64,000 bases of DNA. Origin: Apostichopus japonicus (Eukaryota; Echinodermata; Holothuroidea; Aspidochirotida; Stichopodidae). A program made the position numbers and the translations under genes. The notes under the pieces were generated by a model. The model was not told where the DNA came from. It searched no databases and saw nothing but the letters and a program-made list of their open reading frames with translations. The first letter of the stretch is position 1. Every line of letters starts with the position of its first letter. Of this stretch, positions 18,655 through 63,802 are shown piece by piece. The DNA lies in contig NC_092565.1 of the NCBI RefSeq assembly GCF_037975245.1, positions 15,715,499 to 15,779,498 on the forward strand, given 5' to 3'.

Positions 18655-18765
18655 CTAGGCCTATTATGAATAACGAAGCTTTTTGTCTATTATGGATTAC
18701 GAACCCTTTGCTCTATAATGAATATCGAACCCTTCGTCCTATTATGAATAACGAGCCTTTTTCAC
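18655..18765. repeat. Degenerate short tandem repeat, left part
   Basis: About four imperfect copies of a 25-30 bp unit containing 'attatgaataacgaaccctttt'. The same unit resumes at 19431 after the LINE fragment, so the LINE seems to have inserted into the array. Confidence 0.7.
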
Positions 18766-18769
18766 CATT

Positions 18770-19430
18770 TATCTTGGTATCCTGTTTAGTGACAATTTAT
18801 CTTTCTCTACTCATATTGATAAGATTTGCTCTAGGACCAGCAGAACCCTTGGCTTCCTTAATATGAATTTGCGCTCTTGCCTACCAGAATTACGTGAATT
18901 GGCCTATATGTCTATGTGTCGTTCTACTCTTGAATATGCAGCTCAGATTTGGGACCCTTATAAGGTCTCAAACCAAGATAAAATAGAAAAACTTCAAAGG
19001 AAGGCAGCACGCTTTGTACTCGTGATTTCCGTAGGCAATCCAGCGCGCGCGTCACTGAGATCTTGAAGAGGCTTTGAAATGGGAACCCCTCACAGAAAGA
19101 AGGAAAAGGGCCAGACTTATGCTCTTTTACCAAATTATTAATGGCCTAATTGCAGTCCCAAACGAGACTAATCCCTTCTTGAAACCAGGGAGGCGTGGCC
19201 GCTATACACAAATTCCACATAATCATCGTGCTTTTCAGTATAGTTTCTATCCTAGGACTATAAAAGACTGGAATACACAATCCTCGGCCGTTAAAGAGTG
19301 CCCTAGTCTTGAGGTGTTTAAGACAAGATTGCCCATCGCATTATTATTAGCACTGCTGAGCTGCGCAGCAACATCCTCGTTGTGATACCCGAGAGGGGTT
19401 TTAACGAGTATCTAACAGAAGCAGAAGCAG
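18770..19430 (+). mobile_element. 5'-truncated LINE fragment (CR1/jockey-like reverse transcriptase C-terminus), broken
   Basis: The frame from 18770 reads YLGILFSDNLSFSTHIDKIC, then TLGFLNMNLRSCLPELRELA and LEYAAQIWDPY, then KIEKLQRKAARFV. These are the hallmark motifs after the palm domain of CR1/jockey-type non-LTR reverse transcriptases. Near 19040-19075 the frame shifts by a net +1, and homology resumes as LKWEPLTERRKRARLMLFYQ, SFYPRTIKDWN and LEVFKTRLP up to about 19330. The 3' end carries 'gaagcagaagcagaa'. Catalytic and endonuclease parts are missing, so it is a dead 5'-truncated copy. Confidence 0.85.
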
Positions 19431-20915: not shown

Positions 20916-23900
20916 ATGCAATCTACAGACCAAACGACAGGCGATTACCCGGCCTTTAGGTTAAACCAGCCAAGGTTTGATCAGGTAAATTATGATTTGG
21001 AAGTTTACTTCAATTTGAAGGCTCGCCTTTAGCTGCTCTCAAAGTAGCTCTGCCTACGCCTTCTAAGCTTATCGGTACAATTTTTAGTATATAGGCCTAG
21101 TATTAGTAAAAAAAATATAGTAGTGACTAGTGGGCCTAGGCTAATACTGAATATAAATGTACAAAGTAGGCTATAGATGTATTTAGGCCTAGGCCTTATC
21201 ATGATTTTTCACTTTGCCCCGTATGCATATCAGCACCCTATTGTGGGCCCCAAATGTTTCTCTCATTTTGCTGTGCCACCCCCCCCCCCCCCCTACTTCC
21301 AAATCTGTGGTGATGCCATTTTACCACTTTTCACATATCCTACACTATTTGGTTTTTATTTCCAGGGGACATTTCTCGGACGCTATAGACATTTCTTGGA
21401 CATTATTGATCCTCGAACCCTTTTCACAACAAAGGTAATTCTGGATCCAATTATTTTATGGAGTGTAGTAATATGTCTCTCATAAGTCCTAGCTAAAAGG
21501 TGTGAAGACTCGCGCATAAAGAAACGTCTCATGCCGGTAATCTGACCTAGTTTCAAATGAGGTGTAACAGAAGTGTTAGACCCCGCCATCGTTCCCAGAA
21601 AATACACACGCAGCTTGCTACCATAGGTAATTAGACACTAGTGTACAGTCAGTACATGCAGCTGTGGTCAATACCCACAGCACACTGTACAAACGATACA
21701 GCGATATGGACATCTCACGTACAGCTAAAGATAATAATGTATCATGTTTCATGACTGTCTGCATTTTGTATCGACAAGCAAAAACGTCACTGGCAAGCAA
21801 CGGAAAGTTAACTTTTACAGAGTGCGGCACGCGGTTTGGGGCGAGTCTTCAATGCCTTAACTTTAAGTGGTTGCTCAGATAGCAACCTGAGTCCTGGTTA
21901 TAGAAATGTTGAGATGAAAAGCAAGGAGGAACAAACAAAAGTGTTGGCTACGTACCCCATCTTAGCTAGATAAAAGTATTGTAAAGGAAGCATTAACAGA
22001 TCTATCACTTCCTTCTACTTGACTGTGCATGACTACCAAGAAGATGATAATCATTTTCACATGCATAGGAAGAGATGAAAGAGGGATTGGCAAAGGTGGG
22101 GAGGGGATGGGGGGGGTTTGAGGGGAAGGAGTAATAAAGTTGAAAAAAATAATGATAAATGGATAGATATTATTATATATCCTTTGATATGAAGTATTCT
22201 TGTAGGAAAATATATTTATGTGTGTATGCCTATTGGTAGAATCAGCAAGTTTGTTATTTTTTTAGCGATTAGTCAAGGTACCAGGAACCAAGAATTAATC
22301 TCCTTTTTGATGGTTGAAGAAACTATTCATAAAATGATTTTCCATATTTTCCTGAATATATATTTTTAGAAACAATTGGAGGATGCAATTAAACTTCTGG
22401 ATGACTTCAAATCTGGAACAAGATCAGAAAATGTCTCTAACAAGGAACTATGGGAAGCTCAGAAGATAAAGCAGGTAAGAAAAGTAATTGGTACTTATAA
22501 TGTCAAGATACATTGCTTATCAACAACTGTATTTGTCGCCCTCTATACCTCCCCCCCCCCAACGTCTGCCATCCTTAGTGCAAAGGCTGACAAGTAAAAG
22601 TTACGGCATTTGTCTGAGAATTTCTAACAAAACTTTATGGTGTGGATTATGGATGGTGGATGTAGATGGTGATGGCATGTGTGTGTATGTGACACTTGCT
22701 TATAAACATGGTAACTCAAATAGGTAATTGTGGATTTACTTCATACTTGGTATTTGGATCTGTCTTATTAAGTACAATAATGCTATTGTTTTCTATGAAG
22801 AATTCAGTGGTCATTTGGGGTCAAGGTCAAATCAGAAACTTTAAATAAACAAAGAAAGTACATCTTTGTTGAACTGCATACTTGGTATGCAGATTCGGCT
22901 TGTTGAGTACAAGAACCCTATTGAAATTGATGGAGGTCAAAGGTAATTTGCGGTCAACATTTTATCTCGTTAAAGCGATCTTGTAAACACGATAACACAA
23001 GAAGTACTGTACATCTTTCTTGAACTTCATACGTAGTATGTACTGTAGATCTATCTTGATGAGTGCAAGAATCCTATTGAAATTAGTAGAGGTCAAAGGT
23101 TACATGAGGTCAACAGGCAACAAAGTCTGAAAAACCGTTTGCAAATGATAACTCCAAATCAATGCTACAATTAATCTGTGAATTCTAGGATGCTATGATT
23201 GTCTCTTGGTGGCAAGGAATCATAAAGCTAACTGGCTTTCTGATTATTATTGAAGGTTTTCTTATTAGGTATTTAGACAGAGAGAGAGAGAGATAGAGAT
23301 GGGGAGATAGATGTTTAGTTGCAGTATGTATGATTTCAAGAATAGCTAAACATGCATAGCATAGTACAGAAAACCACTTTGAACGGTCTTCGTCTTCGTT
23401 TTCGTTACGGTGACACATCCGCAAAAAGGAACAATATCTCACCACACACACGTTAAGAGAGTAATTAGTTAAATCTGACCCGAGATATGCTGACAGGATT
23501 CACAGAACCACTGGAACTACTAATGAGGTCTGAAGGCAGACTATTCCAATCCGGTCTTGCAGCATTACATGTAAATACCTAAATGGAAATGCTTGTTCCA
23601 ACTGGTTGATGTTGCACAGTATATTACTGGTTTTAGTAAGCACGATTCAGTTAATTGGTTGTTTCTATGAAAGTGGAGAAGATAATTGCTTGTGAATTTT
23701 GGATCTACAAGAGCTGCTGGACTTGAGGCAACATGGTATTGAGGCAACATGAGTAATTAGTCTTTCAGCTTGATTTACTATTCTGTTGGTTCAATTCCCC
23801 TCCCAAAACTCTAAAATGTAGGAAACCATACTACATGTTCTATGTACACTGCAGTAGTAGGACATAGTTTGTGTGATAGTTTGACCATATAAAATATTTA

Positions 23901-26900
23901 TCTTTGTCTCTTCGAAGGCGATAATTCATCCAGACACCGGGAAGAAGATCTTCATGCCTTTCCGTATGTCTGGTAAGTGTTGCGAAGGATTCCCCATTCA
24001 TTTTGTAAAAGTCTGAGCACTCCATATAGAGCCAATATTAACAGAGACAAATTGATCACCATCATAGATCAACTATTAGGAAACTTAAGAAACAAGCAGT
24101 TTGTAAAATATTGTTTGCCATTCGATGCTTTGTGCTTGTCTTTTAATTGTCATCAAAGGAACAATATGAAGCTAGCAGATTGATGCGGTATGACATGCAG
24201 TAAGATAATATATTGCTTTCTGGTTTGTTTATAAGACAGGCTGGTGTCTGCATGGATCATCAGATTGTATGCAGTATGATAACACATTGCTTTCTGGTTT
24301 GTTTATAAGACGGGCTGGTGTCTGCATGGATCATCAGATTGTATGCAGTATGATGATACATTGCTTTCTGGTTTGTTTGTAAGACAGGCTGGTGTCTGCA
24401 TGGATCATCAGATTGTATGCAGTATGATGATACATTGCTTTCTGGTTTGTTTGTAAGACAGGCTGGTGTCTGCATGTATTGTATGCTGTATGATATTACA
24501 TTGCTTTCTGGTTTGTTTGTAAGACAGGCTGGTGTCTGCATGTATTGTATGCTGTATGATATTACATTGCTTTCTGGTTTGTTTGTAAGACAGGCTGGTG
24601 TCTGCATGTATTGTATGCTGTATGATATTACATTGCTTTCTGGTTTGTTTGTAAGACAGGCTGGTGTCTGCATGTATTGTATGCTGTATGATAATACATT
24701 GCTTTCTGGTTTGTTTGTAAGACAGGCTGGTGTCTGCATGAATCATCAGATTGTATGCAGTATGATGATACATTGCTTTCTGGTTTGTTTGTAAGACAGG
24801 CTGGTGCCTGCATGTATTGTATGCTGTATGATAATACATTGCTTTCTGGTTTGTTTATAAGACAGGCTGGTGTCTGCATGTATTGTATGCTGTATGATAA
24901 TACATTGCTTTCTGGTTTGTTTGTTAGACAGGCTGGTGTCTGCATGGATCATCAGTAATGCTGAGGGATCACAACCCGCTTCACTTTATAAGATTTATTT
25001 ACTTACTGTTGTGATTTTTTATATCTGAAAGTTACCAGATGTCCGGCTAGCTGATTGGAAGACATTCTCTATCAGTATAGGAACTGGGTTGCAATGCATG
25101 AGAAATACTTTGGCAATCGCAAAAGATTTATAACTTACGAATTTGCAATTATGCGCAATGATCAAAATTTGCTAGGACTTAATCTTGCACTGCAGAAAAA
25201 ACATATTACTGACAAGTTAACGCATGAATCTGACCGGAGCAGGTGTTTGCCGATTTTAACACAGCACAGAGCTAGTGTAGCATTGTGAGAACCTGTACTT
25301 TTGCGATATTTGCTGACAAACTGCTTTAGTGTTGTTTTGATAGGTTAGGATATTATTCAAAAGCAGTTTATGTGTAGTGCTAGTTAGAAGTCGAGTAAGT
25401 TAGGTTTTGAGCGTGATTAATCGAACTTCCAAAGTGTTATCGCGACTACTGGCGCTTAATCGATTACGACTATCAGCACTACTGTACAGTAGTCCAAGGT
25501 ATTACTTAAAGGAAAAAAGTATCTCATTTTGAGAAACAAAGAATTTAATGCAAGCCAGCAACTATCCATATCAAGTGAACAATATAAATCTCAGATATGA
25601 ATTTATTATAATTATACCACCTTCTTTGAGTCATCCATATTTTGCTGAACCGTTCATACATCTTTCAACTTGTTTACTTCCTAACTCTGGGAGTCCTGGT
25701 AACAATTAATCATTCCCATATATATTAGTTCCAATTCCCTCTTTGATCTCTTGTTTATTCCTCAGGTTATGTCCCTTTTGGAACACCCACAGTGGTTGGA
25801 TTACTGCTTCCAAACCAAACATTAGGTACTACTATATTTTGGCAGGTAGGTCCATTATATCAGCTCCCTAGAGTCTACAGTAGCAACAAGTTTGACTTGA
25901 TTCAATCTACTGCAAAATATTCATGAATATTACTTGAGGTTGCCTAAAGCCATCGAATGGTTTGAAAAAACAACCTTTGACACTTTTGCTGAATGAGAAT
26001 CTAATTGCTTCTGGTATACATGTTATCCTTGTCATGTCTGACTGGTGACATCAGAATATCCATGTCATGGCTGCAGCACTATTAGGGTTCCATATATGTA
26101 TTGATATAGTTTCACATATTTGCCAGATTATATCACCTGTTGGGCATCTTCAAAGACACATTTCTGATGAGGAAGAGACCCAAACACTACTACTAGCTTT
26201 CTGCCCTCTCAACCCCTACCCCACGTTATGGAAGCTTCTGGTACTACGGACCACCATTCTAATGTTTACATAGAATCTGATAGTTTAGCATATATGTAAA
26301 GATCATAAGGGCTTTAACAGAATCATACGGTTTTAAGGTATGGAATTACATTCCCTAGTTTTTGCATAATTAGCTGTGATTTTAACTGCATTTTTGTAGC
26401 ATGGTTTTAGAGTATAACTCATCTTAAGCGGTACGCATGAAACTCTGAATGATCCCTTGTCATCTCGATAGTACACTCAATATATCACAGCCTGGATAAA
26501 ATTTCAAACAATTTGAAAGAAGGGAGTAATTCATATCTGTCCGAAGCACATTATTCCTTATAATACTAGGGCTATATGTCAGGTTTTCAATAGGAGCGGG
26601 TGTAGGGGGTGGGGTGGGGTGGTTGGAAGAATGCCCATTGGAACTCCTGAATTATAATGAGCTGATGATATCTTTGGTTGATATTAAGTGGCAAGCTTGA
26701 GTGTTATTACTTCTGTCTGGTACTTACATTATCTATGATATTTTTCCTACAGTGGTTGAACCAGAGTCACAATGCTTGTGTCAACTTTTCAAACAGAAAT
26801 GCGACTAAGGTAATACAAACTTTCAACTTCTCTTGTTTACTTATTATTAGCGAGTATAACGATACATTAGCTTTATTATTTCTATCCGTTATTTAACTCA

Positions 26901-36149: not shown

Positions 36150-36646
36150 CATAGGCGTAGGAGCCTAATTTGATTTGGGGGGGCTGTAACGGCTTGCCCG
36201 AAAAATATAACCAAATATTTTATCGCGCTCCGCGCGCGCTCAACATCTTAATGTGCATATCATAGGCATTCATTGGTTATTACATCACATGCAAATAACG
36301 TATAAATGCCTATATGATATGCACATTAAGATGTTGAAAAAAATTGTAAAACACACTGCAGATTTTTCTTCTTTCAGTAGGTGCCCGAAAAATTCTCAGC
36401 ATATTGCACGAATTGCCACCAAAAAAATTGACAAACACATTGCAAATTATTCTGCTTTCAGTAGGTGCCCGAAAAATTCTCAGCATATTGCCCGAATTTT
36501 CACCAAAAAAATTGAAAAACACACTGCAAATTTTTCTTCTTTCAGTAGGTGCCCGAAAAATTCTCAGCATATTGCCCGAATTGTCACCAAAATTTTTGGT
36601 TGGGGGGGCTGCAACCCCCCCAGCCCCCTCGCCTCCTACGCCTATG
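36150..36646. mobile_element. MITE with CATAGGCGTAGGAG ends and an internal tandem repeat
   Basis: The 14-bp TIR CATAGGCGTAGGAG begins at 36150 and its complement ends at 36646. A perfect 8-bp duplication, actaaaag, is at 36142-36149 and 36647-36654. Inside is a hairpin around the 'aatgtgcatatcatagg' segments, then three copies of an 84-bp unit with 'cagtaggtgcccgaaaaatt' at 36375, 36459 and 36543. A stretch of cgcgctccgcgcgcgct lies near the left end. No transposase. Confidence 0.92.
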
Positions 36647-37758: not shown

Positions 37759-38808
37759 CATAGGCGTAGGAGCCTCATTTGATTTGGGGGGGCTGTAACG
37801 ACTTGCCCGAAAAATATAACCGAAATTTTTCGCGCGCTCCGCGCGCGCGCGCGTTCCACATGTTAATGTGCATATCATATAGGCATCCATCAGTTATTAA
37901 ATCACCTGCCAATAACATAAAATCATTTTCCGTGTTTTTACCCTTCCATATTGGTTAGCATTATTGGGGAAGTCGTTACAACAATAATGATAATAATAAT
38001 AATAATATAAGTTTAACCATTGAAAAACACATTGCAAATTCTTCATCATTTTCACTAGGTGCCAGTGGCGGAGTTATGGGGTATTGGTCAGGGGGGCGGG
38101 GGGAAAGAATGGTCTGTAGGGGCGCTTTTGACACTATCTAAGCGGAGTGCCACCACAGGTTGGCGCGGAGCGTTACAGACATTTTTTGAGTAAAGTTACT
38201 CCCTAGATCGCCGGAAATGACCCTTTCCGGGCCTTGCTAATTTGCAGATAAACGAAGAATAAATAGGTGTCATCGCCATTTGTCAGAAAATTGCACCAAC
38301 AAAATGTGACAAATGTCAATAGGTATTTGAGAGCGCAATAAAAAAGTCAATAATCGCGAATAAGTAAAAAGTGGTAAAAAGCTGAAAGGGCGCCAGCAGT
38401 CCATTTGAGTCCGTCAGGGGGGCATCCGCCCCCTCTGACTGTATGGACGCTCCGCCACTGGTAGGTGCACGCAAAGTTCTCAGCATATTGCCCAAATTTT
38501 CACCCAAAAAAAATGGGAAAAAAATGCAAATTATTATTCTTTCAGTAGGTGCCCGAAAAAATTCTTATTCTCGAATTTTCACCAAAATATTGAAAAACAC
38601 ATTGCAAATTATTATTCTTTCAGTAGATGCCCGAATAATTCTCAGCATATTGCCGAATTATCACCCAAAAAAAATGAAAAACACATTGCAAATTATTATT
38701 CTTCCAGTAGGTGCCCGAAAAATTCTAAGCATATTGCCCGAATTTTCACCAAAAAAATTGGTTGGGGGGGCTGCAGCCCCCCCAGCCCCCCCGCCTCCTA
38801 CGCCTATG
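37759..38808. mobile_element. Second CATAGGCGTAGGAG MITE, 1050 bp, interrupted
   Basis: Same orientation and ends as the copy at 36150. A perfect 8-bp duplication, cagctgaa, is at 37751-37758 and 38809-38816. Its tandem 'taggtgcccgaaaaatt' units are split by a 398-bp insertion at 38063-38460; without it the element would be about 644 bp. Confidence 0.92.
38063..38460. mobile_element. hAT-like MITE (CAGTGGCGGAG ends) nested in another MITE
   Basis: Ends are CAGTGGCGGAG and CTCCGCCACTG. The flanking duplication is ctaggtgc at 38055-38062 against gtaggtgc at 38461-38468, 7 of 8. The host repeat unit normally reads gtaggtgc, so the left copy mutated after insertion. It is a reverse-oriented relative of the copy at 54486-54866. 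Confidence 0.9.
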
Positions 38809-43600: not shown

Positions 43601-46600
43601 GACTTTCTGAATTATAACAGAGCTTCAGTTCCCTGGAAGTATGACCTTCTCAAATGTCATAATGCTCAGAAGTTTAAATTCTTATTATATGCTAAGGTGA
43701 CCAGATGTCACAGATTATGTTCCCCTCTAGGATTCCTGTCCCCATCAATGTCCTGGATTAAATGTACATGGACTCTTTATCACCAGAGGTTTCTCTGAGC
43801 CTTCATACAAATATGTATGGAGGATGTGAATAATTTAAAGTTTTACCTGTTTGGTATACTCGGCTAACAATGCATGAGGGTATGGTGTGATTGTTTACTA
43901 AAGTCTGTGGTACTTTAAAAATGCAAAGTTCATTTTACATTTCAAAGATAATAGAGATTTAGATCATAGAGTAATTTCACAGCCTATTATGCAAATTGAA
44001 AACTTTTTTTTTTTGCAGTTTCTGATAATTATGGGACTTTTTGTTATGTTAATGTTTATATGCCCACAAATTTTGACATCCCCTCCCCTTTAAATGTTCA
44101 CTGATCCCTGATGTCAGACACTAGTCCCTGATGTCAATATGTCAATATGGTGTTCACAGAAATCCTTGAAAAAAGTATGTGGCCATCTTACATTACAGAG
44201 ACTCATGACAGAGACTGCAATATTCACACTTTACTGAACTGAGAAATTAGGTACAAATCTGAACCCTCATAACTGAAAACAAAAATTATGGAGCGATGAA
44301 TTTGATTTCTGTAAACACAATAGTTTGAATGCAACACAACACATGTACTGTATGGTATGTGGCTTTTCTTTTCAATGAATTTATGTCTATTTGAACTAAA
44401 TTCTTAAAAACTATAGAAATTAAAGAATCTAACAAGCATTATTGTACCACCATTCACATTGTAATATTTATGTGAAAAAACAAATAAATGAATGAATGAA
44501 TGAATTATATTTCTATCATTACGTTAAACAATCTATTGAATAATATCAGGACATTTGCTTATAATTTCTCCTCATTATGCATATTGTTAGCAATCATTTT
44601 GGTGAATGCAGGTATGGTATAAATGTTGTTCAACTCTTTTCCAAATTTATGGAAGTAGTACTACCTGCTTCAGACACTCAAGGTCATTTTCTCACTATGC
44701 GTTATAATCCAGTTGGTGATACCACCCTATAGTGGTCATATGATACACTCTATGAATTATCCCACTTGTGTTATCACCTCATTAGTCTTGGACAAATCCA
44801 TGAGTCATCCCACAAATGTTTACCACATCATTGGTCATGGAATACTAATATCATTAATACCACTGTTACCATCTAGAGGTCTCATCGTTCATGGAACTCA
44901 CTATGAGTTATCCCACCAGTCGGTTACCATATAGGACTCATCATTCATTGAATGCACTATGAGTTATCCCATTAGTGATACCATAGGTCTTATCATCATT
45001 GGTCATGGAATACTAATATCATTAATACCACTGTTACCATCTAGAGGTCTCATCGTTCATGGAACTCACTATGAGTTATCCCACCAGTCGGTTACCATAT
45101 AGGACTCATCATTCATGGAATGCACTATGAGTTATCCCACTAGTGTTACCATAGGTGGTATCATTCATTGAATGCACTATGAGTTATCCCATTAGTGATA
45201 CCATAGGTCTTATCATTCATATAATGAACTATGAGTTATCCCACTAGTGTTACCATAGGTCTTATCATTAATATAATGTACTTTGAGTTATCCCACTAGT
45301 GTTACCATAGGTCTTATCATTAATATAATGTACTTTGAGTTATCCCACTAGTGATACCATTGGTCTTAGCATTCATATAATGAACTATGAGTTATCCCAC
45401 TAGTGTTACCATAGGTCTTATCATTCATATAATGCACTTTGAGTTATCCCACTAGTGATACCATAGGTCTTATCATTCATATAATGCACTATGAGTTATC
45501 CCACTAGTGTTACCATAGGTCTTATCATTCATAAAATGCACTATGAGTTATCCCACTAGTGTTACCATAGGTCTTATCATTCATGGAATGCACTATGAGT
45601 TATCCCACTAGTGTTACCATAGGTCTTATCATTCATGGAATGCACTATGAGTTATCCCACTGGTGATGATGTCTCGTTATTCATGGAGCAGGCTTGTGTA
45701 ACACCTCCCTGGCAAGAATTGTGGACACGTTTATTCAGCTGTACATATATGAGCAATGCATCGGGGTAGTCCCTGTGGCAGATAGCAACAGAGGCAGAAG
45801 GAACTCCCATGTATACATATATTGGCCTGTTGGGATAAACCACTGTTGCTTAGGGATAGTACAAGTTATGTCCACAGTCTACTACCAACATGATCATATT
45901 AATGTGTTATCGAATTTATTAGATTACCCATAAGACTGCACCTGTCTTCTAAATTCCTGATAAACCAAGCCTGAAGCTATATATCACATATGAATGCATG
46001 CAGGTTCTATATAAGCTTGGTGGTCTCAAAAGTGTATAATAATCCTTGCATTAAAGAGATATATATGTTATGATGGCATATGCAGAGAGAAAAATATACA
46101 TCTATTTCTTATAAAGATATTTTTAAGAGAACAAGATCCATCCTTCTGTAGAATACTGACTTAATATAGAACTATTAAAACATATATATAAATCAGAACA
46201 TGATAAGCAATTGAAAAGAATATTGGAAGAAATTATTGCACCAGTCTGCCAAGAAAATTGATGACGAGTTGTTCAAAGGAACTATTTATTTATTAAATCA
46301 TTTAACTATTCCTCAGACTGATGTCAAAACATTGATCTCATTCCTATCATGTCTAGAAGGGATAGCAAGTTTCAATACTTTCTGTTCCGCTTGATTCACA
46401 ACACTCTTGGCAATAGTTACTTGTTATTGTTGTGTATTAATAAACATGAGAATCCAAGATGTAATTTTTGAGGGGAAGAAGATGAGACCACTGGGCATCC
46501 CTTCTGGGAATGCAAACTTATTTCAAATTCCATTCTTGACACATGAGCAGGCTATCCTTGGAAGTCAACTTTGTTTTTACTCAAAAATATACATTTTCTT

Positions 46601-52600: not shown

Positions 52601-55600
52601 AACCATCATTGCTCCGTTTTCTATGTTTGAAGTAACTCCACCTTACAATACTATTACACGTTAAACTAACTTTACAATATATTAGTAGTTTTCAATCATG
52701 AAAAGGTATGAACATCAAAGATCATTGCTGTGTGATTGATAACACCCTTCTTTTTCTTCTTTTCCTTAAGTCTTTAGAGTTTTTAGAGAAGGGTTTCGGA
52801 CAGTTAGAAGAAAACCAGAAGAAAGTTCTGAAGTGGATCGTGTTTGGTTTGCTGGGATTCCTCTATTTTGCATATTTAATCTACGGCTTGGTTCGTCATT
52901 TCCATGAAGCTGTTCCTCTTCTGGTCATCACCTTGCTTGTGGTTGGATACTCTCTAGCAAAGTATGTCATCAATCGTTGGGGGGACGAATGGAAGAAGAT
53001 ATTCAAAGAGAGCAAATGTATGGAGACCTCCAACCAACAAAAGAAAGTTTTAAGATGGTAGGTACATGGTCGATTGGTTGTAAAAGTGATGCATCAGTTT
53101 GGGCCTCAAAGATTGGCTGACTTTAGTCATGTTATTTCAGGACTCCTGTTCATAACATTGAAAAGACAATACAAAGGATGAATTAAGGGGATGTCAGCTG
53201 AGGAGACATTGAACCTCAACATGCGGCCGGGTCAGTCATTAACAGTTTTATATATCTGTTCATTAAAGTAAGACAAAAGAGTTGCTTGAGCAAAGTTTTG
53301 TGTATTGTGATTTTTGCACTCGCAGGCCATTTAAATAGTTGTACATATATGCAGCAATGGGATGCAAAGGGTGCCAGGGTAAGTCATGTATATTATCTCT
53401 GTTCCTTACAATAAGACAGAGGGGTTGTTTGTTTGAAGTTAGTGTATGGTGAGGTATACACTCACATGCCATTTAAAAATATGATCATGAATTGAATATA
53501 TGAATTTATTGTGAGCTGAGGACATGTTGATTTATACACAACATAGGGTCTCAGAGAGAGCGGCAGGATAGGTCATGTCATTATTGTAGTGCGCATGCGT
53601 GCTACAATATTGGGATTACTTTATACCCACCCCATTATCTACATGGCTGGCTGGTGAATCATGCCAGTTGAGCATACACTCTTCATAGCAATCTCAAATT
53701 TACAGGTTGGCTATGGAGGAAATATCTAGACCCAGATTTGCAAAGAATTGTGGCGGCGAACATTTAATGCTGCACACGTTAAGAAAATAGATCTCCTTGA
53801 GAAGCATACTACTTCAAAACAATACATAAAATTCTCTACTTAGGTTCGTTATTCTCGAATCATTTGAACTCATTTGAGTTAATAACATCCTGCAAAAAAG
53901 TTGCAAGCAACAACTGTTAATCGTATTTATCCGCAACAAGTCAGCATTATCTGTACTTATTCAGCTCTTGCAACATAGGCAATGTTAATATACATTATTA
54001 TAGTGTGCTTGCTTGTCCGTAACGACATTGCATTATATACTACACAGTGATAGTTAGTTTCCACAGGTAGCTGCTTCGTACGTGGAGTGGAGTGGAGTGT
54101 TAGCCTAGTGGTTAACGCCAGTGCCTTTCAATCATAAGGTCCCCGGTTCGAGTCACTCCCAGATTAATGTATGTCGTCCAGTTAGAGAGTTGTTGACAAC
54201 TAACAATTCATAATCATGGACTTTAAATATGAATGTAAGAGACTGACTTCGGTCAGCTTGCGGCTTTGATAAGCCAATGAGGCTTCTTCGCGAGTTCCTG
54301 CTTGCAGGAGGATCTAATATACATATACATACATATACATACATAAACGTATATGGTTGGCCGTGTATGGCATAATGTTACGTGTTTTAGATGATGACCA
54401 ACCAGGACCAGGAAATCGACCAGGCAGTTTTTAATAGACTGGAGAGTGTTACATGTGCATTTGTTAGATAATAGTGCATTAGGCCCAATGGCGGAGCGTC
54501 CATATAGTCAGGGGGGGGGGCGAATGCCCCCCCTGATGGACTCAAATGGACTGCTGGCGCCCTTTTCAGCTTTTTACCACTTTTTACTTATTCGCGAATA
54601 TTTACTTTTTTTATTGGGCTCTCATCTACCTATTGACATTTGTCACATTTTGTTGGTGTTGACACCTATATTTATTCTTCGTTTATCTGCAAATTAGCAA
54701 GGCCAGGAAAGGGTCAATTCCGGCGATCTAGGAAGTATATCTTTACTCAAAAAATTGTTGTACGCTCTGCGCCAAACTGTGGTGGCGCGCCGCTTAGATA
54801 GTGCCGAAAGCGCCCCTACAGACCATTCTCGCCCCCCCTTGACCAATACCCCTAGCTCCGCCACTGATTAGGCCTTCGGTGTAAACCACCATATGTTCGT
54901 AAAATTTCGCCAACTAGCAGCAAGGATACAGTAATGTTAACGTGTTGTCTAATTTGACCAATCAGTGTCCAGGACTGTGTATTCTCTGTCATGACCGAGT
55001 GATTCGTGATTGACAGCTTGGTTGCCTGGTTAATATGTAATGGGTTTAGTCATTATTTCTTTGTTGATATTGCAGGTACATGCTAGCTAGAGTACTGTTT
55101 AAACATTACACAATATAGCCTAGATTTGGTCTACGTTAAAGGACCAAACCCCCGAACTGGCTTCTTCGTGACCGAAATAACTTCAAAAGATTGCAGTAAC
55201 AAAGACCCTCCATTGAATACCAACAACTAATTAACTTTCACCTTCACTACAATGGCACGTGTTTTTATACAAATACGACTTTGTTCTAGTTGTATTACAA
55301 TAAGACAACAAGAATGGCTTGCATGAAGTTAGTGCATGGTGAGGTTTACAATCACAGACCACTGAAATGATGAATATATTAATGTCAGCTGGGAATACAT
55401 AGACATCTTAACATAGTAACATAGATTGCACATGGGTGATTAATGTTGTTGCCTCTGGTTGTTTATAATATTTGTGTGTTTATCATGTGTTTCTCCTGAT
55501 CAAAACATAGCCATTTATTGCCTGCATCTACATTGGTGTTATTATGTCTGCAGAGTTATTATAGATAAGTGTTATTCAATACCTAATTCAATTTAGCATG

Positions 55601-58600
55601 TATGTAATATTAACTCCAGGTGATGTCAGAGTGCTTTCAAGGGGCCCAGGTTCACTGCTTACATGGGATATCATTTAATGATCCCCAAGGGATAAAGGTA
55701 TAATGTCATCTCCTTGCTCAGCCAATATGATGGTATGCAGCCATATATCAACACAAAACCAGATGCACTATAGGTTTATAGCAGCAATTTGTGTACCAAG
55801 AGAACATTGTATTTATCATCACCCGAACCCTGCTAGAACTATCAACAAGTAACAGATTATATATAGAGTGAGCTACTACTCAACAAGTTTGGTTTGACTT
55901 GAAACACTTGATCTTGGATGCAAATGGTTTATGCAGTGGTGTATGATTGGGTGTGTGTGCGTGTTACTGTGTGTGTATACATATGTGTATTTGATGCCTG
56001 CTTGTAAGCATGATGATACACCAAAATATTGCATAGGGCGATTAAATTCCTATTAGGAATGTAGATGTATTTTATTGATTACAACAACCCTGTCGAGATT
56101 AGTGGAGGGTGAAAATTGATGGAGGTCAAAGGTCATTTAAGGTCAGTAGAAGTTACATTCCAAAAAACTTGGTAAACAAGATATTCTCACAAAAAAATTG
56201 GTTTGTATGAAATTTATACTTGAACTGTAGATCCACTTTGATGACTGAGTGCTTTAATAATTATTCATAACATTCTAGTTTGTGCAATCACGAAGGAGGG
56301 TTTCTTACTTTCTGAGCTATTGTGATTTTTGTTGTTGATGAAATACAGAAAGCTGCTTTCTAACCTTCATTGGACCTTCACAGAAATCGGCATCCTTTTG
56401 ATGTTCAGTAGCTAAAATTAGAGGATTACTGAGACTGAAGAAGAAAGCCACAACTAATATATCGATCGAAGGATTAAATTCAGGTTTAACAGGCTTAAAA
56501 CTTACAAGCAAAGAAAAGTTTGACTACAGATAACCATGTTGGGTCTTTGTAGCATATTTAAAGGGGTAATATATAATGCACTGGCTGAAGTTGATAGCTA
56601 AAAAAAAAAAACACATTAGGTGAAAAAAAACATCCACATAACATTTTGTATGGGGAAGAAATGATAAAGGTTACATTCAATCGACCATATCTTGAGTTAG
56701 GAACAAGATACAGATCTAGGACTTTCAATTTACAGTGTGGAATGTTTTTCATTTCCATATAACTTACACTGTGTGTGCAACTGGAGTATCTGTTTTATTT
56801 GATGCAAAGTATAACAGTATTTTCATAACATGCTTTTAAAAAATATAATGGTAATCCTCTTCAATTGCGCTATAACCCTTCAAGAGGACTTTGCTAACAC
56901 TATCTGTGATTTATGCATATATCACAAAATTGTTTCTGCAATTCAAGTCTAGGTATCATTGTAATAACATGGAAGTCAACCATAATATGACCATTCTCTT
57001 CAAATTTACTACATCCCATTAAACCATACGCAATCGGCTACATATCACACAATCTGTTTACCTCATTGAAATAACATGGAAGTCTACAATTAAGACTATT
57101 CTCGTCAATTTCACCATACCCCTTTATGGGGACCTCACTGACATTCACACTTGGGTGTTTATTCAAGCAGACATGCATAGAAGTTCACATAGTTTAGTTC
57201 TTTATTCATGACAGTTTGTATCCAAATTTTCCCATAAATGTTACATACTACATCTATTGTTCAGGTGAAAGTGAAATACTTTGGGTGCCAGAGGTGTGTT
57301 TCAACTGCTCCAATAGTTTGAAGATTCATTCATTAATTCCCGACCATACTCCCTCGAAGTACCTTAGCACTGTCACTTCTTAAGAGAAGCCACCCATGAT
57401 AGATAGGCCTGGGCATGAAAACCAATCCACTCTAAACCTTAGCATTGTTTGACTAATTAATGTTCCTACCCCTCCCCCACCCCTCCTCCACCTCTAACTT
57501 TTAGGGTGCTACTGTCCTGTCTTCCCATAACAATTGCATTCTTGCTATCCTACTAAATGTATTTGGTTCAGGGTTTTCTTTTCATCATTTTGTTTTCTCT
57601 TTAGTTATATGCTTTTTTTATTTGATCATTACTTTGCTGTAGTTTTATCCAAACATACTGAGTATTGTGCAAAGGCAAGACATCCTCCTAGCCCTTTCAA
57701 ATCATAGATTACTTAACTTTGCATCGAATTATTACAATTCAAGTCATCAAAAACCATTTGTTGCTCAGACACTTGTCACATTGTTCATCAATATTCATGG
57801 CTGCCAAAAGATACTGATTGAAATAGCAATAGATTTTCTTTGTCTTTTGAATTTTTGAAATAATAAGATTAATAGTTAAAAAGCTTGTGGGTTGCATCAC
57901 GCTGGTTAAGTGCGGGATAGACAGTCTCTTAAATATCTAAACAACATGGAACCTTGTTCATTTACCACATGCTAGCCACTCGGTGTCATTCAATGGAGTA
58001 TGTGCATCTATATTGTTTATTATTGTCTCATAGTAATATACATCTTCTTGCTTGTTTGTCACTTGTCAATGACTGCTGCCACCAATATCTTCCAGTTCCT
58101 GCTCATAATGACTGCTGCCACCAATATCTTTCAGTTCCTGCTCATAATGACTGCTGCCACCAATATCTTTCAGTTCCTGCTCATAATGACTGCTGCCACC
58201 AATAACTTCCAGTTCCTTCTGATAATGATTGCTGCCACCAGTGTCTAATACCATTCATTCAATTTTTTTGTTTTCTATTTCCTGGGGACAATGTACACCT
58301 AGATCGGTAATGACTTCAGCCTCCGATATCTTCAATCATTGATTCAAAGTTAATGTTTTCTGCTTTCTCAGGGAAATCAACTTCTTCCTGGTAGTTTCCT
58401 CTTGATGGTGACTGCTGCCACCAAATTCTCCTATCATTGATTCAATGCTGTATATGTTTTTATGCTTTCTCAGGGCAACGTACTCCTTCCGGGTGGTTTT
58501 CCTCTAGATGATGACTGCTAACACCAGTGGTTTATTTCAAGTATTCAATGCTGTATATGTTTTTCTGCTTTCTCAGGGCAATGTTTATCTTCAGTGGTTT

Positions 58601-61600
58601 ATTTCATGTATTTAATGCTGTATATGTTTTTTCTGCTTTCTCAGGACAATGTGCTTCTTCCTGGTAGTTTCCTCTTGATGATGACTGCTATAACCAGTGG
58701 TTTATTGCATGTATTCAATGCTGTATATGTTTTTATGCTTTCTCAGGGCAACGTACTTCTTCCGGGTGGTTTTCCTCTTGATGAAGACTGCTAACACCAG
58801 TAATTTATTTCATGTATTCAATGCTGTATATTTTTTTTCTGCTTTCTTAGGGCAATGTACTTTTTCCTGGTGGTTTATTTCATGTATTCAATGCTGTATA
58901 TTTTTTTCTGCTTTCTCAGGGCAATGTACTTCTTCCTGGTGGTTTTTCTCTTGGTAATGATCGCTGCCACTGGTGTCTTCCATTCCTGGATCAGAGAACC
59001 AAGGCGAATGGTATCTGTGCTTGGTCTGATTGTTATGTTATCCACCAGCTTACTTTGTTCTAGGCATCCTACAAAGGTAAGGCAACAGTCAATGAATGTC
59101 CTACACAAGTTAGGAGGGGGTTGTTTTTGTTGGGTGGGGGGGGGGGGAGTGGGATGTTGATGGTCTCGAGTGCTTTGGTTTTCTTTATGATAGAACAAAG
59201 TTTTTCAACACAAGCCAGACATAAATACTGTTTGCTTGATTCGCATCCCTCCCAGATTCGTTGGCGGACTGTCTTCTGGGGGGTCTACTTGCAGATCTTC
59301 TTCGGGGTTCTGATCCTCCGAACAAGATTAGGATTTGAGTTCTTCCAGTGGATAGGCAAAGAAGTTGAGGCGTTCTTAAACTATACAACAGTGGGTGCCA
59401 CTTTTGTCTTTGGTCCTCAAGATTTAGCACTTAGGTCTTTTCTCTTTGAGGTAAGGTCATTTTTCTAATAAACATTAATGAAAACATTTAAAAAAATTTT
59501 CCCCAAAATATCATCATTTTTATAATAGTTTGTCTGGATTTTTCATCTAAGGATAGGAGAAGAGCTGGTGATGAGTGTTCTTGTGAAAGATTCATCTAAG
59601 AACGACATCGGGTTTTCATTTAGAGAACAGAAAGGAGATATATGCTGAGAAGTGTATCACATACCATACCATGACTCTGCCCATCTGAAGGAAAAGGACA
59701 ACCCAACTAACCTCACTATTAGCAAATGTGATGCATATAGCTTGTTAAGAATAGCTCCACAGCACAGCTAAGAATAATTTAGTTCTATGTGAGAGATACC
59801 ATGTTGGAGAGTTTTTAATACTTCACCTGCAAGACTAGAAGACTTGAACAAGTCTAGAAATGACACCATAGAGCCAGTGGTGCTTTAAATTTAATGTTAC
59901 TCTCTATTAATCACATTGTCTAATTTCTTTAAAAAGAGTGTTGGCATTTGAGCATTTTGTTGCTGCAGTCCATATTTTTAACTTATCTTCAAAAAAAACG
60001 AAAATGATAAAAAAAAAAAAATGAAACTAACCTTTTACCTTTGGTGGAAATATGACATAACACATTGCCAAAATTCTAGTCCTTGAAGAAGAAGAAGAAG
60101 AAGAAGAAGAGGAAGAGGAAGAGGAGGAGGAGGAGGAGGAGGAGGAGGAGGAGGAGGAAGAAGAAGAAGACTGTTTGGCTGTATGAGAGAATTGTGCATC
60201 ACAACTATATCATAGGGAAAAGATAATATTTGGATTTGCCTCTCCTTTAATTTGCATACCTCAGCCGACTGGAGTTTGGTCCTAACAAATTGCGCACCCA
60301 CCAAACACTAGCAACGAATGAAACAAGTTCAATAGTGTTTTGAGATGATCCTAGAAAATTATGCAGTGTTTCGTCATCATCATCTTTTCTTGGCTCTGAC
60401 TCCTTTGATCTTATTTTTGTACTTTCATACAGATTTTACCCGTCATCATCTTCACCAGCGCCATGTTTGCTCTCTTCTATCACCTGGGACTGATGCAGAT
60501 TGTCATCTCTGCTTTTGCATTCATCATGCACCACACCATGGGGGTGTCCGGTGCAGAGTCATTTGGAGCTGCATCAAATGTCTTTGTTGGTTGTGTGAGT
60601 CAACTTAGTTTTTTGTTTAATTATGGAGAGAGTAAAATGTATGCATATAATGTATTCTTTTATATTTAAAATAGAATATATTGAGTTAACTTGTGTTAAG
60701 ATGTCATCTTATTTTCAACTGTATGTTCCAATGATGAGCACTGTTTAACGTACTTTATCAAGGCTTATCAAGGCTGAAATATTGATAATGGTCGAGGGGG
60801 ACAGAGAATCCAATCCCTCTTCCCAATTCAGAAACAGAAAAATACCAAATTCACAGATGACACCATGAAAATAACTTGTAGTGTGAGATTCTCAACGAAA
60901 TTAATTTTGAAATGAGAAAGCAACTTTGAGCAAGTCAAAGTTGTTGAGCTGTGGTGATGACCTTTGACCTTGTTATATAATTTTATAATTCTCCATTCAT
61001 TACTTGTTACAGAGTACTGCTCCCTTGGCCATAAAGCCTTACCTGAATGACTTTACCACATCTGAAATGCACTCATTAATGGTTGGAGGCCTTGCAACCA
61101 TAGCTGGTAGTGTTTTAGCAATCTACATCAAGTTTGGTGTCAGTGCAGCTCATCTGCTGTCTGCGTCCATCATGTCTGCTCCCGCCTCTCTCGTGGTAGC
61201 CAAGATGTTCATTCCAGAGGTAGACAAACCTAAAACAGCAAATCATGCGGTCGTGTCTGACTGCGGAAAGTGAGTCATTCTATAGCTTCCTTTAGTTGAC
61301 TAGAGTTTATTCCACAGGTAGATGGAAAAAAAAAATTAAATAATAAAAAACAATAAATAATAAAACAAAAAACCCAGCAAACCATGCTATGGCGTCAAAC
61401 TGCAGACAATGAGTCATTCTTTGGGTTGGATAAGTTGACTAGAGTTTATTCCACAGGTAACCTAGATGTCGACTAGATGTCAACATGTCATCCACTGGAT
61501 GTGAACTAGTCTAAAGATCACCTGAAACAGCAAACCATTCTATGGTGTGAGACTAGAGTTAATTCTGTTAGCTACAGTTAATTCTGTTAGCTCCTCTACA

Positions 61601-63802
61601 TAGTTAAAGGGAGCGTCTCATGCCTCAGTAGATTGACTGATGTCATGCTGACTATGAACTCGTCAGTCAACCAGTAGTGGACCTCATTGTGTATTTCACA
61701 ATCTCTTCCTTGTAAACTAGCTATTGATAACTGTACCTTTTCTCTCTTATACTCTGTTAAAACTTAATGTTTCAGTTACATAACTCTACACAAATTTATA
61801 TGTTTTGTAACCTAAGGCTATTTGCTAACTGAAATATGCAAATAAAATTCATTACTGTCATAATAATTCTACCATCACCAACCCCAACCACCCACACCAC
61901 CTCCCTTCCTCTTCTTCCCCCTTGATTTTTCCTCCCTTTTATTCCATTCTTGGTTACCAGAAAGTCAAAGAACTGTTTTGAAGCTCTCTATAATGGTGCT
62001 ATCGATGGATTAAAGATCTGTGGTTACATCATCGCTAATATTCTGACTATTCTCTGTGTCCTTGCATTGATCAACAACATTCTTCAGTGGCTCGGTGAAC
62101 TAGCAGACATCGAAGGCCTTAGCTTTCAGGTCAGTTTTTAAAACTCTTTCAAGTGCTGTATATTTAAGCAAATTTATATTTAAAGATTAGTATTGTTGCA
62201 ATATCATGATATCAGCAATACTTGTATATTGTTATGAGTTTAACCTCCCAGTATTGTTTTCCAAAAGAAGAAAAAACAATTAAATTTTATAATGAGTCAA
62301 TAAAATGAATTTACCCTTACGAATTTCAAGGACAATGTATAAGATAAATCATTGGTCGATAGGGATGTTTGAAAAAATGTTTGAACAGGATTTACGTGAA
62401 GAAGTCTAAGACGGTATCTTTGACAAAAAACATTGCATCAAGACAATTTAATGTGAGTTTTATCTCAAAAAATTTAACAAACGTTTGGTTTTGAGAGAAC
62501 TGCAAAAGTAGTTGAAATGTGGGACCTAGTGCTGAAAGGTCGGTGATTGTCCTTTGACCTTTATTCAAAATGGTTGACTTTATCCTGCTGGCTTATTTCC
62601 TTTTCAAATGATGCACTTTCTTGTTTTTTGTTCTGTTTGGCTGTAGTTAATCTGCAGGTATCTCCTCTATCCCTTGGCTTGGATTTTGGGTACCGATCCT
62701 GAAGACTGTATGGAAGTTGCGGAACTCATTGGTATCAAGACTTTCCTGAATGAGTATATTGCCTATGAATATCTTTCTACTTATATCAGAGAGAATACAA
62801 TAACGGTAATCAGTTTTTATCTTTCAAAGCCATTTTTGTCTTTGACAATTGTGACAGTGTCTGTCAACAGTGAATCCATAGTAATAGTGTTGTAGTACCT
62901 TCATAACTTTTAACCTATTTCAATATGTAAATATTGTCCTCTATTTTTCCTTTGTCTTCTCCTATACTCATTGTTAAACTTCATTACCTATCTATTCAAG
63001 AGTGATTTTTTATCAGATAATATCAAGAAATGTAAGGACCTTCACAGTCAGCGTTTTGTTTTATCCTCATATCAAGGTTCTGTGAAAACTGCGAATACAA
63101 GAAATCAAACCACAAAAAAATTCAATGCGTCCTCTTTGTAGCTTATTGGCACGTTCTCACAAGTATCATTTTTTTACAGCCAGGACTGAATGTTATATAG
63201 CAAGTCGATTTATGAAGTTGAAAATTGGTCGACTTGACATTGAAATTAAGTAAGCTGCTTTGTAGACCTGTTTCGAGACGGTCTGGTGTACAATGAAATA
63301 TGCAGATGCGTTGCCTTGAAGTCATTTTTTTGCATTTCTTTTACTTCTGTCTGCGATATTATAATTGTGAGAGAGTAAAGATTGTAACATAAGCAAGAAG
63401 TTGTTCATCTTTTGATATCATTAGTTAATTGATTTTTTTTTATTTCTCTTATTCCTAAATGCTATTTTTAAATTTATTACATTAAGTGTTGGGAGAGTGT
63501 ACAAAATTATGGTCCATTCATCATACCAACATACCCAAACCTAACTTGAAATGAATTGTAAATAGGAAACACAAAAACACTTTTATTTTCATTTTTGATT
63601 TTTTCTTTTCCCCCCTTTCAGAGTCGCTCACAAATCATTGTGACCTATGCCATCTGTGGTTTTTCTCATGTTGGTAGCATCGGTGTTCTCTTGGGTGGCC
63701 TTGCACCTCTGGTGCCAGACAGGCTTTCAGAAATCAGTTCTCTTTGCGTGAGGGCGCTCGTTTCTGCCTGCATAGCCTGTTTCATGACAGCTTGTGTTGC
63801 AG
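40675..63802 (+). CDS. SLC28A: Concentrative nucleoside transporter (SLC28/CNT family), 3' end beyond window
   Basis: Exons are 40675-40722, 48712-48849, 52771-53057, 58920-59076, 59256-59450, 60433-60594, 61013-61269, 61961-62129, 62647-62805 and 63622-63802, all phase-consistent (584 codons plus 1 nt). The ATG has an AAAATGG context and an in-frame TAG two codons upstream. The first about 70 residues are cytoplasmic and acidic. TM1-2 lie in exon 3, TM3-4 in exon 4 and TM5 in exon 5 (WRTVFWGVYLQIFFGVLILR). The transport core holds GLMQIVISAFAFIMHHTMG, SNVFVGC, GLATIAGSVLAIYIKFGVSA, SASIMSAPASLVVAKMF, GIKTFLNEYIAY and CGFSHVGSIGVLLGGL. Family members couple Na+ or H+ to nucleoside uptake at the plasma membrane. 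Oddities: G-Q-T-E-[AS]-P is G-C-S-T-A-P (residues 328-333), and the Asn of CGFAN is His540; Glu507 of NEYIAY is kept. One or more exons lie right of 63802. Extra N-terminal exons cannot be excluded. Confidence 0.92.
43249..43266. repeat. (GT)n microsatellite in transporter intron 1
   Basis: A short alternating gt run in otherwise AT-rich intron sequence; no further structure seen. Confidence 0.8.
44700..45670. repeat. 52-bp minisatellite, about 18 copies, transporter intron 1
   Basis: 'gagttatcccactagtg' recurs every 52 bp at 45129, 45181, 45233, 45285, 45337, 45389, 45441, 45493, 45545, 45597 and 45649. The left third (44700-45128) is less regular and contains a higher-order 168-bp duplication: 'ggtcatggaatactaatatc' at 44833 and 45001. 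Units alternate 'agtgttaccat' and 'agtgataccat' variants. Confidence 0.95.
48040..48610. repeat. Degenerate tandem repeat ahead of transporter exon 2
   Basis: Many loose copies of 'gctagatctagtarcatggtggtag', about 25-40 bp each and strongly diverged, enriched in gatc and tagctag. It lies within 700 bp upstream of the exon at 48712. Confidence 0.6.
49234..49285. mobile_element. Terminal fragment of the CAGTGGCGGAG MITE family
   Basis: 'acagaccattctcgcc', a C tract, 'tgaccaatacccctagcgcc' and 'gcaactg' match the right end of the element at 54486-54866. No left end or target duplication was found, so it is truncated. Confidence 0.75.
54095..54350 (+). mobile_element. tRNA-derived SINE with hairpin-rich body
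   Basis: The head has an A box TAGCCTAGTGG (54101-54111), a B box GGTTCGAGTC (54145-54154) and acceptor-like pairing GGAGTG/CACTCC. The body contains compact hairpins: CTGAC-TTCG-GTCAG (54243-54256), GGCTT-TGAT-AAGCC, and TCCTGC-TT-GCAGGA. The tail is an 'atacat' microsatellite. The cloverleaf T stem does not pair well, so this is a SINE and not a tRNA gene. Confidence 0.8.
54486..54866. mobile_element. hAT-like MITE, 381 bp, transporter intron 3
   Basis: Ends are CAATGGCGGAG and CTCCGCCACTG. A perfect 8-bp duplication, attaggcc, is at 54478-54485 and 54867-54874. Internal sequence ('gcccttttcagctttttacc', 'attgacatttgtcacatttt', 'ggtggcgcgccgcttagata') matches 38063-38460 in reverse. Confidence 0.92.
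56030..56175 (+). repeat. Dispersed intronic repeat copy with a DR1 motif
   Basis: Contains 'tgatggaggtcaaaggtcat' followed by 'ttaaggtcag', related to the units at 22740-23130. AGGTCA-A-AGGTCA is a perfect direct repeat spaced by one base, the nuclear-receptor DR1 half-site arrangement. Confidence 0.55.
58066..58245. repeat. 36-bp minisatellite derived from transporter exon 4
   Basis: About four to five units like 'aatgactgctgccaccaata', 'tctttcagttcctgctcat'. The unit resembles the coding sequence at 58957-58990 ('aatgatcgctgccactggtg', 'tcttccattcctgg'); units read MTAATNIFQFLLI where the exon reads MIAATGVFHSWIR. Confidence 0.8.
58282..58919 (+). repeat. Tandem decayed duplications of intron end plus exon 4 head
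   Basis: Copies of 'tgctttctcagggcaatg' have their AG at 58370-58371, 58472-58473, 58575-58576, 58643-58644, 58745-58746 and 58849-58850, before the real acceptor at 58918-58919. Spacings are about 102, 103, 68, 102, 104 and 69 bp. Each copy repeats the pyrimidine tract, AG and the first part of exon 4, then a bridging 'catgtattcaatgctgtata'. An older copy without AG lies near 58285. Those at 58473, 58644 and others hit stops or frameshifts in the exon reading phase; the one at 58851 stays in frame. Confidence 0.88.
60085..60170. repeat. (GAA)n/(GAG)n purine microsatellite, transporter intron 5
   Basis: 86 nt of uninterrupted gaa and gag triplets with a nearly symmetric gaa-gag-gaa order. 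Purine-only on one strand, so triplex-capable. Confidence 0.95.
61371..61560 (+). repeat. Decayed duplications of the transporter exon 7 end and donor
   Basis: The exon 7 end and downstream intron (61236-61325) are repeated at about 61371-61460 and partly at 61523-61560: 'cagcaaaccatgctatgg', 'actgcagacaatgagtcatt', 'gactagagtttattccac'. In the first copy the donor gtgagt has become atgagt. Confidence 0.75.

Follow-up and report, generated by a model that had tools for sequence, protein, structure and literature searches.

The 64-kb stretch of DNA analysed here (the window) carries on its + strand a multi-exon gene of the SLC28/CNT family, with exons spanning 52771-63802, that continues past the right window edge. 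To model it, every GT/AG end lying up to 6 bases from any of eight proposed exons was enumerated. Only two combinations gave an open frame, and these differ solely in whether the last donor is 63802 or 63806, so that there is effectively one open splice model. It yields 522 residues from 1566 nt, with no stop and no frameshift. The residue count starts without the first coding exon, which was not placed; on this count the Gly of the GCSTAP motif discussed below has number 266, and the preliminary numbers 328-333, 507 and 540 are not reproduced. The first modelled exon (52771-53057) encodes an N-terminal region (including HFHEAVPLLVITLL) that resembles the N-terminus of human CNT3 (hCNT3) by eye. 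Searched alone against Pfam, this exon did not match the CNT family and gave only a sub-threshold match to DUF4271. The second exon (58920-59076) is followed by one covering the Nucleos_tra2_N region (59256-59450). HP1 is shared between two exons, 60433-60594, which holds its first half and ends V-G-C at TGT/gtgagt, and 61013-61269, which opens S-T-A-P and holds the second half and the TATIAGSV stretch. The Nucleos_tra2_C region starts in exon 61961-62129, NEYIAY lies in exon 62647-62805 and CGFSHVGS in exon 63622-63802.

Immediately upstream of the second exon is a degenerate tandem array (58029-58971), which ends with the acceptor and first codons of that exon and contains four earlier copies of the acceptor, TTTCTCAGG[AG]CAA[CT]G. 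The 39-nt repeats at 58068-58240 look like later exon sequence. An array copy near 58848, with TTAG as its acceptor, reads without a stop and in frame into the exon proper at 58920 and could add about 23 residues if used. Apart from short copies of one exon's start in this array, no second gene copy or mutually exclusive exon was found in the 64 kb when eight gene pieces were compared with six-frame peptides (best non-self match, E 0.009). The label of paralog in the preliminary description thus finds no support in the window.

Elsewhere in the window, an exon with a Cyclin_N domain (Pfam E 6.3e-15) lies at 195-575 on the - strand and looks like part of a cyclin J. A possible sideroflexin exon is found on the + strand at 22370-22594 (SFXNs, E 0.00018; 20.9 bits, below the cut-off of 22). 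Open frames at 18752-19385, + strand, resemble by eye the last part of a reverse transcriptase from a non-LTR retrotransposon; Pfam found no family there. Minisatellites occur at 24195-24946 (66-nt unit, 10 copies) and 44877-45665 (52-nt unit, 15 copies), and another with an 84-nt unit is present at two places 2 kb apart (36337-36592 and 38461-38757).

A 427-residue part of the predicted protein exceeds the Pfam cut-offs for Nucleos_tra2_N (86 bits, cut-off 27), Gate (49.8, cut-off 29.6) and Nucleos_tra2_C (245.4, cut-off 32.3). Its closest solved structures are bovine CNT3 (E 5e-110) and human CNT3 (E 2e-109), with which it groups at an SH-aLRT of 99 in a tree made by a quick method from 68 of 235 sequences, with letter composition flagged. 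Introns and the protein's affinity to animal CNTs mark it as an animal gene, and judged by its sequence this SLC28/CNT member is intact and looks expressed. The sodium-1 site, in hCNT3 numbering Asn336, Val339, Thr370 and Ile371, reads N, V, T and I (Asn at 60577-60579, Thr-Ile at 61097-61102). Four of the five residues of the second hCNT3 sodium site, as proposed in PMC7440666 (Ser369, Ser396, Cys561, Cys602 and Thr605), are kept, with Ser369 replaced by Ala as in VcCNT. Three of the four substrate residues Glu519, Phe563, Asn565 and Ser568 are also kept, Glu519 as GAG at 62752-62754, and alignment places a Val at Val375. The preliminary description had held that the fold outside the altered motifs is intact, and it was right to: the three Pfam domains, the Asn before VFVG, the NEYIAY Glu and the Ser568 equivalent are all present.

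The substrate pocket is changed. At the HP1 tip hCNT3 reads NIFVG-QTE-SPLLVRPYL and the window protein NVFVG-CST-APLAIKPYL, so that Gln341, Thr342 and Glu343 are replaced by Cys (TGT, 60592-60594), Ser and Thr (AGT-ACT, 61013-61018). Alignments to hCNT3, bovine CNT3, VcCNT and NwCNT are gap-free from the Asn before VFVG to the P-Y/F past the tip. A phase-0 intron with strong-looking donor and acceptor splits the tip between Cys and Ser (GGT-TGT/gtgagt ... ttacag/AGT-ACT-GCT-CCC). CGFAN has become CGFSH, CAT at 63667-63669 giving His at Asn565 (VcCNT Asn368). Codons and alignments thus bear out the two substitutions first noticed in this gene, G-C-S-T-A-P for the family motif G-Q-T-E-[AS]-P, split at 60594/61013, and His for the CGFAN Asn. 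The missing HP1 glutamate (motif G-x-[TSV]-E) is a lost hallmark of function and not of the fold family; it bars the label of typical nucleoside transporter, not homology.

Two explanations that would leave the glutamate in place were rejected. For the intron at 60595-61012, 43 GT/GC donors were paired with 28 AG acceptors, with introns of at least 40 nt. None of the 22 joins that were open and contained the downstream exon gave [TS]E[ASN]P, QTE or QSE, and [QM][TS]E is absent from all frames on both strands of introns 59452-60432, 60595-61012 and 61271-61958. Alternative splicing that restores Q-T-E was rejected, since no tested junction yields Thr/Ser-Glu. Displacement of the glutamate by misalignment was rejected because the tip aligns gap-free with four solved relatives; a truly shifted tip is seen, for contrast, in one bacterial clade described below.

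How unusual these residues are was judged against 236 prokaryotic loci that yielded 230 distinct CNT proteins from three phyla, the two CNT3s serving as animal comparators. The loci comprise the 80 best of at least 589 matches, groups of 5, 13, 28 and 30, and 80 fetched by place. The patterns behind the 80 best of at least 589 excluded the HP1 tip and included the CGF[AS][NH] stretch, with N or H allowed. Those fetched by place were matches without an assigned locus, 20 of the 23 in one list (two weak G372 pieces and G475 were omitted) and 60 from another, the latter chosen by hand and mostly from its lower half. At position 343, 223 of the 230 proteins have E, 5 have D, 1 has Q and 1 has A, and none has T or S. 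Position 341 is Q in 168, M in 41, a gap in 8 and another residue in 13, never Cys, while position 342 is T in 135, V in 36, S in 32, I in 20 and another residue in 7. Position 565 is N in 222 and H in 8. The other contacts are nearly constant (519: E in 229, D in 1; 563: F in 229; 568: S in 221). Measured against these 230 proteins, T342S is commonplace and Q341C brings a residue without precedent to a position that varies anyway; N565H has few precedents and E343T none. Because 341 and 342 vary freely, only 343 and 565 count as strong departures. None of the 230 is changed at both.

Similar searches elsewhere gave no counterpart. The DNA pattern for N-x-F-x-G-C-[ST]-T-A-P was absent from all 387 Verrucomicrobiota genomes searched. 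Among viral contigs, the query from the window gene gave no pattern match, and the 19 pattern matches to a stretch of human CNT3 included no relative. Among the papers listed in literature searches, none dealt with echinoderm or other invertebrate SLC28 or with a glutamate lost naturally; most subscription papers lay outside this coverage, so that absence is unproven.

Across the rest of the protein, 26 of 31 positions that are at least 93% conserved in the prokaryotic CNTs and common to hCNT3 and VcCNT are kept; the five lost are L302F, E343T, L454I, A564S and N565H. Other residues without precedent occur as well, among them an Arg at the place of hCNT3 Ser487, where 223 of the 230 prokaryotic proteins have Gly. 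Mean identity to these 230 is 33.9% for the window protein against 37.0% for hCNT3, the window protein being the lower for 205 of them, and its terminal branch in the tree of 68 of 235 sequences is 1.16. These values fit a protein that diverges faster than hCNT3, and they are also compatible with relaxed constraint; constraint on the gene may be relaxed but still present. The general speed of change and the other odd residues weigh against reading the altered pocket as something special.

Published structures and mutants indicate which of the changed positions matter. The preliminary description had VcCNT Gln154, Thr155 and Glu156 contacting the base. According to PMC4139061 this applies to Gln154, which touches uracil directly, but Thr155 and Glu156 reach it only through water. 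In hCNT3, Glu519, Asn565 and Ser568 face the ribose, and E519Q, E519A and S568P show no uridine binding, as described in PMC7440666. The same source gives a uridine Kd of about 325 uM for the wild type, about 1.19 mM for E343A (roughly fourfold weaker) and about 280 uM for N565A. Cysteine scanning of hCNT3, as reported in PMC5465479, found Q341C, T342C and N565C functional, which argues that three of the four changed positions (341, 342 and 565) tolerate change. Both Q341C and N565C were more sodium-preferring, Q341C and T342C had altered selectivity, and Q341C had a sodium:proton ratio of 4.6 with reduced cytidine and thymidine uptake (PMC5465479). Uptake by E343C was below 0.1 pmol/oocyte/min; since surface amounts were greatly reduced, the authors drew no conclusion on transport, and Cys at the matching position of hCNT1 and NupC left low but measurable transport (PMC5465479). 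The word essential, used of hCNT3 Glu343 in the first account of this gene, is therefore too strong: E343C is near-inactive, but it scarcely reaches the surface and E343A still binds uridine (PMC5465479, PMC7440666).

All eight prokaryotic proteins with His565 are Verrucomicrobiota CNT-like proteins (L169-L176) with the motif CGF[AT]H, and they form one clade (SH-aLRT 99). In the tree, built by a quick method from 68 of 235 sequences, this clade and the animal CNTs share a 14-row fork (SH-aLRT 93) that includes three Asn-bearing bacterial rows. Because the clade stands by itself, the window protein belongs with the CNT3s and Asn-bearing rows share the fork, His565 of the window protein is most simply read as a change separate from that of the bacteria. 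The bacterial clade possibly carries a different substrate. Two of its eight loci (L243 and L244) share a setting of ftsA, ftsZ, an M28 peptidase, dapF and dapA, with domains named on L244 only; the remaining loci have hardly anything in common but the CNT itself. No nucleoside enzyme was recognized by Pfam name among the 17 other proteins scanned beside these CNTs, and gene neighbours were set aside as uninformative on the substrate.

The changed pocket probably means that nucleosides are carried differently or that something else is carried. We give about an even chance to the reading that the protein is a functional transporter which prefers sodium and has altered base selectivity and reduced affinity. 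The residues that cannot be changed (Glu519, Ser568, Phe563 and the sodium-1 site) are kept, and those that can be changed are altered together with Glu343, which is why we read the gene as encoding a working transporter. The protein would be of the elevator type and probably sodium-coupled, with a rebuilt pocket that retains the sodium-1 site and the ribose-binding Glu519 and Ser568. Since its base-facing tip, Cys-Ser-Thr, no longer offers the base-holding Gln and Glu, the protein would discriminate between bases differently or less strictly and bind classical nucleosides less tightly. Sodium rather than proton dependence would be expected by analogy with the more sodium-preferring hCNT3 mutants Q341C and N565C. 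Single hCNT3 changes, the same or comparable, that shift selectivity without abolishing transport lend this reading support by analogy.

The substitutions could instead be tolerated drift at plastic sites, in an ordinary transporter whose substrates are still the usual nucleosides and whose kinetics differ modestly. We consider this rather unlikely, although much in the comparison is compatible with it. Gln is present at 341 in only 168 and Thr at 342 in only 135 of the 230 proteins, and 10 of the 230 match the window protein in differing from hCNT3 at four of eight named contacts. In addition, a bacterial clade of eight has made the change from Asn565 to His, and uridine binding by hCNT3 N565A is like that of the wild type (PMC7440666). 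It is position 343 that tells against such drift: no protein compared has Thr or Ser there or combines a change there with one at 565, and E343A weakens binding about fourfold (PMC7440666).

The protein may also be dead as a transporter, given that hCNT3 E343C, poorly delivered to the surface, is near-inactive (PMC5465479) and that Thr343 occurs in no homologue compared. It would then fold and reach the membrane as a sensor or as a partner subunit of CNT trimers, dominant-negative or regulatory, or would be on its way to loss. The constancy of Glu343 (E in 223 and D in 5 of the 230) and the faster divergence than in hCNT3 agree with this. We nevertheless think it unlikely, as the sodium-1 site and four other listed contacts, needless without transport, are kept, the frame is open with canonical splice sites, hCNT1 and NupC with the matching Cys retain low transport (PMC5465479), and hCNT3 E343A still binds uridine (PMC7440666).

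An artefact of assembly or base calling, or a copy dead too recently to have gathered stops, is very unlikely. The gene is known from one genome copy and runs off the window. If 4.28% of substitutions create a stop and indels are assumed to arise at 0.1 per substitution, the 1566 nt would stay intact with a probability of 0.18, 0.03 and 0.006 at 1, 2 and 3% neutral divergence, so that 1% is compatible with the open frame. The codons TGT, AGT, ACT and CAT, however, lie at least 3, 1, 3 and 1 nucleotide changes from those for the hCNT3 residues. This total of at least eight, in four codons over three exons with clean flanking frames, set against the low intact-frame probability, argues that the four substitutions were not simply acquired after a recent loss of function; nor does any alternative junction supply a canonical tip. 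The earlier judgement that clean frames mark no pseudogene is upheld for a long-dead gene, which the open 1566 nt excludes, but leaves the recent one and the artefact this small probability. Slighter still is the chance that the pocket is now adapted to an anionic nucleoside-like solute: loss of the Glu343 charge and gain of His at the ribose-facing Asn565 would make it more positive and so suited to such a solute, with cyclic ADP-ribose a candidate because mammalian CNT2 and CNT3 import it coupled to sodium, according to PMC9454491.

If expressed and functional, this gene would serve as a natural experiment on Glu343, the residue that varies least on the base side of the CNT pocket. Work by Slugoski in 2009 is said to implicate hCNT3 Glu343 in cation coupling. 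The kinetics of the window protein would show whether Glu343 is needed in substrate recognition, surface delivery or cation coupling, a role that the hCNT3 mutants leave open because E343C hardly reaches the surface (PMC5465479). A protein that carries another solute would add a new substrate to a drug-relevant transporter family, and a dead one would be a retained inactive transporter, of interest in a family that is trimeric.

Among known systems, the window protein is most like hCNT3 (SLC28A3, PDB 6ksw) and bovine CNT3 (PDB 8tz1), with 46% and 45% identity over about 398 residues and the same domains. Kept in common with both are Asn336, Thr370, Ile371, Glu519, Phe563, Ser568 and Val375, while at Val339 the bovine chain has Ile instead. 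It differs from them by Q341C, T342S, E343T, N565H, S369A and S487R, and its loop before CGF is 13 residues shorter. The bacterial sodium-nucleoside symporters VcCNT (PDB 3tij) and NwCNT (PDB 5l26) are 34% identical to it, align gap-free at the HP1 tip and share the sodium-1 place; unlike the window protein they carry G-Q-T-E-A-P and CGFAN. The same glutamate is lost from prokaryotic CNTs L161 (QTQ) and L163 (VTA) and replaced by Asp in five others, but none of these has Thr or Ser at 343 and none has Asn565 changed as well. L163, a CNT-like protein from the phylum Verrucomicrobiota, has Ala at 343 and Asp at 519 (GDFVGY) and is the only one of the 230 to change both glutamates. The L169-L176 clade resembles the window protein in its His at the Asn565 place and, in seven of the eight proteins, in SGAES before the tip. 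Unlike that of the window protein, its HP1 tip (FVG-[IV]-E) is shorter by one residue and keeps the Glu, and T-E stands in place of N-E before the AY motif.
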